DNA of 64,000 bases. Origin: Cyclobacteriaceae bacterium (GTDB taxonomy: Bacteria > Bacteroidota > Bacteroidia > Cytophagales > Cyclobacteriaceae). The position numbers and the translations under genes were made by a program. Location: contig JAEUUJ010000002.1 in the NCBI GenBank assembly GCA_016786495.1, forward strand, positions 18,106 through 82,105, given 5' to 3'. Below are positions 58,238 to 61,138 of this stretch, piece by piece; the first letter of the stretch is position 1; the number at the start of each line of letters is the position of its first letter. The notes below the pieces were generated by a model. The model did no database searches and had not been told where the DNA came from. It saw only the letters and a list, made by a program, of their open reading frames with translations.

Positions 58238-61138
58238 ATGAACACCGATTTGATTCGCAACGATTCGCACCTCGACAACCTCGATCCCAAAGAATACATC
58301 ATCATCAAGCGCGCCCGGGTTAATAACCTGAAAAACCTGAGCGTGGCTATCCCCCGCAACAAACTTGTCGTGATTACCGGTTTGTCGGGATCCGGAAAAT
58401 CGTCCCTGGCATTTGATACCCTTTTCGCAGAAGGCCAGCGCATGTACGTAGAAAGCCTCAGCTCATATGCCCGCCAGTTTTTGGGCCGCATGGAGAAGCC
58501 GGACGTGGACTACATCAAAGGTGTGTCGCCTGCCATTGCCATCGAACAGAAAGTTAATACCCGAAACCCGCGCTCAACGGTTGGTACGAGCACCGAGATT
58601 TACGATTACCTCAAGCTGCTGTTTGCACGAATCGGGAAAACCTACTCGCCCGTCAGTGGCAAGGAGGTAAAACGCGACACGGTTACCGATGTAGTAAACG
58701 CGATCAATAAGCTTGCGGCAGGTACACGCATCATGATTGCTGCTCCGGTTACGCTCGCTAAGGGCAAAAAAATTCAGGATGAATTGAACCTATTGTTAAG
58801 CAAAGGTTTTGCACGGGTACTTTTAAATGGAGAGACATTTTTTATTGAAGATTTGTTGAGTAGTCCCTCACCCCGTCCTTCGGACCTGCCTGTCCGGCAG
58901 GCAGGCACCGCTCTACCTCGGGAGAGGGGCAGGGGTGAGGGAAAGAAGAAAATCTCCGAAAAAGATAAAGTTGAAATCCTGATCGACCGGGCTTCGGTTA
59001 ATGCGGAGGATGAAGATACCGTGTTCCGCATTTCAGACTCCGTACAAACAGCATTTTACGAGGGGCATGACGAATGCCTCGTGCACGTGGAAGGTCAGAT
59101 GCCAATGTATTTTTCCGACCGGTTTGAACTGGACGGCATTCAGTTTACTGAACCCTCGGTAAACTTCTTCAGTTTCAACAATCCGTTCGGGGCATGCCGT
59201 ACATGCGAAGGTTTCGGAAAGGTGCTGGGCATCGATGAAGACTTAGTTATTCCCGACAAATCGCTTTCCGTATTTGAAGGGGCGATTGCTCCATGGCGGT
59301 CAGAAGCCATGAGCGAGTGGGCTAAACCGTTGCTCAAGAATGGCATCAAATTCAACTTCCCGATTCATCGGCCCTACAATGAGCTGACGCAGAAAGAGCA
59401 GGAATTGCTGTGGAATGGTAACGACTACTTCGAAGGCATTCACGCATTCTTCAAATACCTCGAAACAAAGACTTATAAAATTCAGTACCGGGTTATGCTG
59501 TCGCGCTACCGCGGAAGAACAACCTGTCCGGATTGCCGCGGAACCAAACTTCGTAAGGATGCGCAATACGTCAAGATTGCCGACACATCCATTACAGATA
59601 TCGTTCTGATGCCAATTGAAGACGTGTTGACCTTCTTTACCGGCTTAAAACTTCCCGACTACGAGAAAAAAATCTCTGAACGGATTTTAACAGAAATCAA
59701 ATCACGCCTGGAATACATGGTGAAGGTTGGATTGGGCTATCTGACACTCAACCGGGTTACGGCAACACTATCCGGAGGTGAGTATCAGCGCATCAAGCTA
59801 GCAACTTCTCTCGGAAGCGCGCTGGTGGGTTCGATGTACATTATGGATGAACCCAGCATTGGCCTTCATCCGAAAGACACTGCCCGAATGGTGGAAGTGT
59901 TGAAATCGCTTCGCGATTTGGGTAATACGGTTATTGTGGTTGAGCACGAAGAAGAAATTATGCGTGCGGCCGATGAAATTATCGATATCGGGCCTGATGC
60001 CGGAGCACACGGAGGTGAATTGATTTTTCAGGGATCGATCAAACAACTCAATGGAAAAACAAATTCGCACACGGTTAATTATCTGAGCGGCCGCGATACC
60101 ATTGCAGTTCCGGCCAAGAGGCGGAAGTGGAAAGATTCGATTGTTATTAAAGGTGCGCGTGAAAACAACCTGAAGAACCTCACGGTAAAATTTCCATTGG
60201 GAACATTAACCGTTGTTACCGGAGTGAGCGGATCGGGTAAGTCGACCCTCATTAAAAAGATTCTCTATCCTGCCATTGGCCGCTTAAGCGGGTCGGTGGG
60301 TGAATCGCCCGGCAAGTTTGATTCGATGGATGGAGACATCTCACGCATCACACAGGTGGAGTTTGTCGATCAGAATCCCATTGGTAAATCATCGCGGTCG
60401 AACCCGGTTTCGTATGTAAAAGCATACGACATCATTCGTCAACTCTATGCCGATCAGCCGCTGGCCAAGCAGCGTGGTTACAAGCCTTCCAATTTTTCTT
60501 TCAACGTAGAAGGCGGACGCTGCGAAACGTGTGAGGGTGAAGGCGAGATCAAAGTTGAGATGCAGTTCATGGCCGACATTTACCTGGAGTGCGAAAGCTG
60601 TCATGGTAAACGCTTCAAGCAGGAAACGCTCGAAGTTGAATACAACGGCAAGAACATAGCCGAGGTGCTGGACATGACCATTGAAGATGCGCTTGACTTC
60701 TTCAAAGATAAAAAGCCGGTGTACGACAAGATTGTCCCGCTGAACGATGTCGGGTTAGGCTATGTGAAACTCGGGCAATCGTCAAACTCCCTGAGCGGAG
60801 GGGAAGCCCAACGCGTGAAACTGGCGTCTTTCCTGGGAAAGAACTCCACGGAAGGAAATATTCTGTTCATTTTCGATGAGCCAACAACAGGATTGCATTT
60901 TCATGACATCTCGAAATTGCTCAAAGCCATGAATGCACTGGTTGATCAGGGTCATTCGGTGATCGTGATTGAACACAATCTCGAAGTGATTAAGTTTGCC
61001 GATTGGATTATCGACCTGGGGCCTGAAGGCGGAGAGAAAAAAGGTGGCAATTTGTTATTCGAGGGCACACCGGAAGACATGGTGAAGAAAGCAAAGGGCA
61101 GCTACACCGCAGATTTTTTGAAAGATAAGCTCGACTAA
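58238..61138 (+). CDS. uvrA: Excinuclease ABC subunit A, with in-frame repeat insertion
   Basis: UvrA is the damage-sensing ATPase of nucleotide excision repair. 966 residues. The N-terminal ATPase has [14 protein letters not shown] (about residue 48), the zinc segments CRTCEGFG and CPDCRG, and the signature [16 protein letters not shown]; the second has [22 protein letters not shown] and [25 protein letters not shown] and [10 protein letters not shown]. Residues 209-235, encoded by 58864-58942, are a translated palindromic repeat with sequence DLPVRQAG inside; this stretch is not part of UvrA in other organisms and accounts for the extra length over about 940. The insertion sits in the variable insert region following the first ATPase segment, presumably tolerated. 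Confidence 0.95.
58864..58942. repeat. Palindromic repeat element inserted in uvrA
   Basis: Terminal inverted repeats TCCCTCACCCC (58864-58874) and GGGGTGAGGGA (58932-58942) are perfect 11-bp arms. An inner hairpin has CCTGCCTG (58885-58892) and CAGGCAGG (58898-58905) around TCCGG. The total is 79 bp and the reading frame of uvrA continues through it without stops. Sequences of this kind are, from memory, dispersed in Bacteroidota genomes. Confidence 0.82.

Follow-up and report, generated by a model that had tools for sequence, protein, structure and literature searches.

How does a 79-bp palindrome come to be translated inside a DNA repair protein? The question is raised by the uvrA gene of a Cyclobacteriaceae bacterium (assembly GCA_016786495.1, contig JAEUUJ010000002.1), which lies at 58238-61138 on the forward strand of the 64,000-nucleotide stretch analysed here, referred to as the window. 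The gene encodes 966 amino acids in one open frame, with matches to the Pfam families UvrA_inter, UvrA_DNA-bind and ABC_tran, and the palindromic element occupies 58864-58942, corresponding approximately to residues 209-235. Sequence comparisons lead us to think it fairly probable that a homing-endonuclease element inserts in frame into host proteins without being spliced, and that the uvrA palindrome is its non-autonomous relative. A wider proposal is more tentative, its chances being close to balanced: across the phylum, mobile elements made of a Vsr-like homing endonuclease with translatable palindromic ends would reside permanently inside host proteins without splicing, home into essential enzymes (LeuRS, IleRS, MetH, UvrA, restriction enzymes) and shed nuclease-less palindromes that remodel loops, as in the UvrA of the window.

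The two arms of the element, TCCCTCACCCC (58864-58874) and GGGGTGAGGGA (58932-58942), are exact reverse complements, as described in the first-pass annotation of this DNA. They are the sole perfect 11-bp pair at their own spacing within the window; with overlapping ones and the uvrA arms counted, the window holds 15 such inverted pairs whose starts lie 14-118 bp apart. The predicted RNA fold of the element has an energy of -51.4 kcal/mol (z = -4.1), equalled by none of 200 shuffles. The uvrA frame stays open through the element, which adds 26 residues, again in agreement with the earlier description; four of the six frames, including the one in use, are free of stop codons. The inner hairpin proposed at that stage does correspond to an inner palindrome, but its anatomy had to be corrected: CCTGCCTGTCCGGCAGGCAGG (58885-58905; 21 bp, 7 codons) is a second palindrome nested in the first. 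Based on sequence and family alignment, two further hairpins belong to the outer element: GTCCTTCGGAC (58875-58885), which is small, and CCGCTCTACC-TC-GGGAGAGGGG (58908-58929), which is large and degenerate and is the counterpart of a CCCCTCTCC/GGAGAGGGG hairpin present in other family members and in many ends of the larger units described below. The arms as printed carry no GTAG or CGTC tag, a systematic search for such tags not having been made.

Comparison with related genomes supports an in-frame insertion (compared genomes are labelled G, with G000 being that of the window, and loci L). We searched 59 genomes for UvrA and read 30 loci at the element site; 8 of these, the window's own included, carry a full or half element in the loop, while 22 carry none. 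The gap expected by the first-pass annotation in all close relatives is found in most of the relatives read, but the two nearest, G011 (UvrA 98% identical) and G008 (96%), have a shorter form, a peptide of 20 residues or a close variant of it, without the nested palindrome. The 21-bp palindrome was therefore either gained later in the window's lineage or lost in both relatives, a gain of 7 codons with the frame kept being the simplest account. The synonymous divergence (dS) of UvrA relative to the window is 0.88 for G011 and 1.47 for G008, with an element identity of 0.84-0.86; the element is old within this trio, having been inserted before their split. The closest named genome is the metagenome-assembled genome (MAG) Cyclobacteriaceae bacterium SSF30, with a UvrA 97% identical in its best segment.

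Related elements entered the UvrA loop several times. Other half-elements occupy it in G005, G002 and G014 (SPLSLGRGAGGEGN-type) and in G009 (KKLPSPTGRGAGGEG), and the loci L240 and L247 of named MAGs carry SSPLFQRGAGGE and SSPLLQRGAGGE there. A peptide similar to that of the full element occurs at the same place in G033, which belongs to another genus, and the MAG SZAS-64 (L234) has a peptide identical to that of G033. In a UvrA tree of 35 rows, built by a quick method with the loop columns excluded, the loop states require 6 changes, and the full-element label at least 2, forced by starred branches, one change in the window clade and one in G033. The occurrence in another genus, which the earlier reading took as a point that would speak against a mobile element, therefore does not reflect one conserved feature. 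In a separate, larger UvrA set, two motif filters together with a limit on length left 64 of 109 loci. Where the window's protein has ~35 residues after residue 206, the aligned loop of two solved UvrA chains has 6-7. An AlphaFold2 model of the window's UvrA has a predicted local distance difference test score below 50 at 210-238, the longest such stretch (mean 81; four further short stretches are also below 50), which suggests that this loop is disordered. The own genome also has a second UvrA-like match (G000:C51:10315-12519; 46% identical over query residues 244-965), as do relatives, and such a gene may ease the tolerance of UvrA for inserts.

Copies elsewhere in the genome, as predicted by the first-pass annotation, were detected with a covariance model of the palindrome family (6 matches at E <= 0.05), but the uvrA copy is the only full-length nucleotide match, the other 11 being pieces of 14-32 bp. 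At the same threshold, the model finds the family in 12 of 17 genomes of the genus with 6-29 matches each, counts that take in both strands and weak matches, full copies being few. A search of the own genome with the pattern CCTCACCCCNNNCC at 2 mismatches was dropped, its 302/344 being scarcely better than the 283/306 of the reversed control. The 11 aligned elements share, with minor variation, CCTCACCCC, a small hairpin, CCCCTCTCC-loop-GGAGAGGGG and GGGGTGAGG. The family falls into single half-palindromes, full elements of ~54-80 bp between arm cores, and ~0.5-kb units with a DUF559 reading frame. Of 51 element positions, 49 were kept (the misplaced L322 and L330 were left uncounted), with 31 lying outside and 18 inside open frames of at least 150 amino acids. 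In-frame or gene-adjacent elements are found in UvrA, the MetH of G014, a G009 ArgF-like carbamoyltransferase, the DUF559-HutF junction and in front of QueG (G000, G014). The G009 copy (L315, G009:C1:1711732-1711793) is a half-palindrome in frame within an aspartate/ornithine-carbamoyltransferase-like protein. The palindrome at the DUF559-HutF junction of G002 (L093) is oriented opposite to those of G014 and G005 (L087, L092), with the frame open both ways. Palindromes of the nested type recur inside elements of G007 and G015, and CCTGCCTGTCCGGCAGGCAGG itself is also in frame in the own genome at L044 (G000:C86:72980-73000), in the linker between two lipoyl domains of a 516-residue 2-oxoacid dehydrogenase E2. 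The lengths of 11 of 12 exact-arm copies are divisible by three; because these copies are interrelated and lengths of 53, 56, 58, 61, 79-81 and others also occur in a wider set, we draw no argument from this.

The larger units, in which similar half-palindromes form terminal inverted repeats around reading frames for the Vsr-like domain DUF559 (PF04480), had been missed when the element was first read as a mobile palindrome that adds peptide segments to proteins. DUF559 occurs in 14 of 17 genomes of the genus, and 15 of its 26 matches there lie within open frames of at least 350 amino acids, one of them (L120) spanning masked bases. In the order, it is present in 223 of 390 genomes, and among the best-scoring 150 matches 64 are in frames of at least 350 and 43 in frames of at least 900 amino acids; at the level of the phylum, E <= 1e-20 is reached in 159 of 395 genomes. 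N-terminal 'fusions' (HutF, QueG, TrmH, RecQ) may be stopless neighbours, and we therefore used only mid-gene inserts as proof of in-frame insertion. Among the loci fetched, mid-gene hosts comprise LeuRS at two sites, IleRS, MetH, UvrA, UvrD-like helicases, HsdR and methylase-type restriction enzymes. Site A of LeuRS precedes the FTTRxDT motif of the editing domain and site B precedes ELTTMPGW; the MetH unit sits between B12-binding domains, and that of UvrA (L162) in the linker that joins its two nucleotide-binding domains. C-terminal DUF559 domains are attached to hosts including PurQ and MetH. Of 17 proteins compared with Pfam, 11 have host families flanking DUF559 on either side (L114, L162, L133, L184, L178, L154, L331, L338, L343, L349, L336).

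The window's own genome provides an example. Its only strong LeuRS match (L114, G000:C40:10583-10897) has an in-frame DUF559 unit at site A, at the editing domain; a LeuRS N-terminal query gave 696 bits for the top match and 34.7 bits for the next. The host lists are biased samples, since fetching was filtered or partial: 40 of the 42 matches in the order that had frames of at least 350 amino acids and lacked a locus were fetched (G125 and one of G365 were omitted), and in the phylum survey 20 matches with frames above 1000 amino acids, a subset. Two side observations concern these hosts. In L154 and L197, the unit fuses two coenzyme A transferase subunits in one open frame (Pfam on L154). Where LeuRS site A lacks DUF559 (L205, L206, L208, L210, L211, L213), the loop often contains AT-rich repetitive codons, e.g. 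ATTCAAAATTCTGCATTCAAAATT, which may be in-frame repeats of another kind.

When the left flank of each of 82 non-redundant unit instances was compared with the reverse-complemented right flank of the same instance, the median score was 41; other pairs gave 19 and the direct orientation 21.5, and the own-partner mean was reached by none of 10000 permutations. A score of 30 is reached by 46 of 68 fused units. In 40 loci of ~5-9 kb, GC-rich hairpins number 34 in the 12.8 kb adjoining DUF559 and 88 in the 307 kb more than 500 bp away, a density ~9 times higher beside the domain; with a strict stem, 12 of the 40 loci have hairpins on both sides. In the 51 units with a clear repeat, the end sequence tracks DUF559 identity (rho 0.50 for all pairs and 0.48 for different host sites), and does so between different sites and different families (rho 0.31, 868 pairs), a value reached by none of 2000 permutations.

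These ends bear on the possibility that the palindromes and unit ends belong to a classical repetitive extragenic palindrome (REP) system, moved by an HUH tyrosine transposase (TnpA-REP or REP-associated tyrosine transposase, RAYT; Y1_Tnp), with DUF559 a passenger between two REPs. We consider this explanation unlikely. Y1_Tnp does occur in 13 of 17 genomes of the genus, its presence is loosely associated with that of the palindrome (Fisher p = 0.053), and the sections of PMC6006769 considered here describe TnpA-REP subclass 2.6 as having atypical secondary structures at its flanks and as occurring mainly in Bacteroidetes. However, 8 of the 26 Y1_Tnp matches were examined with 1.5-kb flanks and all lack exact arm or hairpin motifs, G002 has palindromes but no Y1_Tnp match, and both the hairpin density beside DUF559 and the agreement between end and DUF559 sequences link the ends to DUF559. 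On the grounds of these motif-free loci, RAYT was rejected as the cognate enzyme and is retained here solely as a rival. One of the Y1_Tnp loci (L103) has an inverted repeat nearby, but a different one.

The occupancy of host sites is patchy and alternating. In a DUF559 tree of 90 rows (a short alignment with many forks unresolved), the host-site labels need 28 changes, compared with a minimum of 17 and an average of 64 for shuffled labels; host sites are thus retained, yet changes of site are frequent. The G006 and G007 units at LeuRS B form the sister group of the G015 unit at LeuRS A (100/82, starred). LeuRS site A is empty in G008, near kin of G000 and G011, while short apparent repeat-peptide remnants without nuclease are found at LeuRS A in G012 and at LeuRS B in G001 and G009. 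In front of QueG, G000 and G014 have a DUF559-less palindrome or apparent remnant at the DUF559 site. At the MetH site (MetH was found in 54 of 59 genomes), only G014 among 29/30 readable loci has an insert, a palindrome, with 65 residues between the anchors against 46-56.

One pair gives a clear signature of transfer between species. In the LeuRS of G000 and G011, dS is 0.10 within DUF559 but 1.34 and 1.14 in the flanking host parts, a low unit divergence as would be expected of homing. Third-position identity rises from 0.48 (codons 251-275) through 0.80 (276-300) to 0.88-1.00 (301-450) and then falls to 0.84, 0.80 and 0.68; such graded flanks are suggestive of the short co-converted tracts that homing would predict.

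A number of observations weigh against this picture. In the flanks, no more than 25 of 82 units score highest with their own partner end, unrelated pairs attain a score of 30 in 1429 of 6642 cases, and among free-standing DUF559 genes this score is attained by only 5 of 14; none of the 9 units in front of HutF, QueG and TrmH has a left hairpin. Other 25-codon blocks of the same LeuRS pair reach identities of 0.80 (codons 1-25) and 0.88 (76-100), which leaves the low divergence of the unit as the clear part of the signal. Among 25 same-site pairs, defined by a DUF559 identity of at least 0.72, G000/G011 alone is strongly discordant and most show no drop: discordance is lesser or less certain for LeuB L111/L129, HutF L106/L107 and TrmH L109/L122, unit and host divergence are equal in L164/L172, and in all 12 PurQ pairs the dS of DUF559 is above that of the host or saturated. 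Since most same-site pairs, including those of PurQ, lack discordance, much of the spread is vertical. The link between the uvrA palindrome and the units has weak points of its own. We found no UvrA that carries DUF559 in the loop used by the palindrome of the window, the sole UvrA-DUF559 protein (L162) using a different linker, and the left part of the uvrA palindrome, GTCCTTCGGAC, is missing from DUF559 unit ends. In G003, palindromes are present but a full DUF559 gene is missing; G012 (87% complete) has a contig-end DUF559 and no palindromes. Over the 17 genomes, palindrome and DUF559 do co-occur (Fisher p = 0.0099), but the association is weak, being uncorrected for kinship and using a DUF559 threshold set post hoc. 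The idea that the loss of a DUF559 unit simply left the uvrA palindrome behind as a scar was rejected; because GTCCTTCGGAC is foreign to the unit ends and intergenic cousins exist, we regard the palindrome as a separate small element.

PurQ also provides an argument for a second alternative, in which DUF559 is a domain serving the host, e.g. in mismatch-type repair, fused to housekeeping enzymes, the repeats being mere recombination substrates. The C-terminal DUF559 of PurQ (family f13; L146, L148, L150, L153, L158, L163, L167, L175) has a nonsynonymous divergence (dN) of 0.00-0.07 in the 12 pairs with high or saturated dS, as expected under strong purifying selection. The comparison indicates vertical descent under strong constraint, as if the domain had become useful there. 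In addition, the sections of PMC12907096 considered here present the Caulobacter DUF559 protein VsrA as a predicted Vsr-like repair endonuclease, which causes the SOS response of a methylase mutant. As a general explanation, host service is nevertheless improbable: DUF559 occupies different sites of one gene within one genus (LeuRS A and B), its occupancy alternates with empty sites and remnants, its hosts are functionally unrelated, and the G000/G011 divergence profile indicates transfer.

The domain itself argues for retained function, as nine residues (E16, W20, Q35, D44, F45, E55, D57, G58 and H61 in L114 domain numbering) are identical in 76 of 76 fused DUF559 copies. From Vsr-like and PD-(D/E)XK enzymes, we take these catalytic-type residues to include the active site. 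Removal of the inserts by protein or RNA splicing, or their skipping by ribosome bypassing, as cryptic inteins, introns or bypass elements, is suggested by their placement in conserved essential enzymes and by the hairpin-bounded inserts known in bypassing, but is very improbable, as no intein domain is among the Pfam matches of 17 proteins, no Rfam family was found at gathering score in 6 unit-bearing loci or at E <= 1 around uvrA, and frames are open across all mid-gene inserts read, which RNA splicing or bypassing would not need.

The homing-element reading would work as follows. A short palindromic mobile sequence entered the disordered surface loop of UvrA in frame, and the element of the window's lineage most simply took up the second, nested palindrome later. 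In the ~0.5-kb units, two inverted half-palindromes enclose the DUF559 frame (Vsr-like, PD-(D/E)XK-type), and these large units, lodged in conserved, often essential proteins, would presumably be translated as part of the host protein. The nuclease would cut an empty allele and recombination would copy the unit into it, most likely by homing; occasionally, the unit would jump to another gene or lose its nuclease frame, leaving an in-frame palindrome. We infer the endonuclease activity of DUF559, the homing mechanism and the mobilisation of nuclease-less palindromes by the nuclease from sequence patterns.

With respect to known systems, the uvrA palindrome lies wholly inside an open reading frame, keeps the frame, is missing in most homologues and has dispersed copies, as coding palindromes do, and the likeness to those of Rickettsia noted by the first-pass annotation is apt as a kind. 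To its remark that such elements seemed little described in Bacteroidota it must be added that the sections of PMC3733652 considered here already record CGTC repeats in Bacteroidetes, and report in 2013 in-frame REPs in other bacteria, often in DNA repair genes such as uvrA of O. terrae (both copies) and Thioalkalivibrio, with tRNA synthetases of three species also named as targets. Like the Rickettsia palindromic elements and these in-frame REPs, the uvrA element is a short in-frame palindrome in a repair gene, although of another sequence family and host group (PMC3733652, same sections). Because of that report, the palindrome by itself adds a member to a known kind; the sections covered discuss mobility via RAYT and do not mention in-frame nuclease units with the same ends (PMC3733652).

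The DUF559 units share with REP-RAYT systems and their paired REPs (REPINs) the half-palindromes, inverted pairs, a flanked enzyme gene and the co-variation of end and enzyme, but the enzyme is DUF559 instead of an HUH tyrosine transposase and lies in frame inside other proteins. With homing endonucleases of the EDxHD/Vsr-like type (I-Bth0305I) and with inteins they have in common conserved essential hosts, site fidelity with occasional jumps and one unit younger than its host gene; they differ in their palindromic terminal inverted repeats, in that no intron or intein was found, and in that the nuclease domain apparently remains part of the host protein. In the organellar rps3 case, an endonuclease frame is continuous with the host coding sequence, and we know of no palindromic ends in such organellar endonucleases. 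The organellar intron endonucleases treated in the sections of PMC8260586 considered here resemble the units in this continuity, but are spliced. Part of PMC9403480 ties DUF559 to the EDxHD homing family. By analogy, the units would act like a putative homing-endonuclease element with REP-like ends, but the Y1_Tnp loci examined lack the flanking motifs that would mark a REP-RAYT system. We did not find nuclease-bearing in-frame units described in the open-access literature searched, and the arrangement has the look of a mobile element, as yet undescribed, that resides within proteins.

If this is true, units that stay in LeuRS or MetH without splicing would represent another way for a mobile element to persist in essential genes, by inserting at places that can accommodate an additional domain, its ends being translatable in several frames. 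In-frame palindromes have been known since the Rickettsia elements, and the units would provide a candidate agent for them. They would also provide naturally occurring sites at which essential enzymes tolerate insertions.

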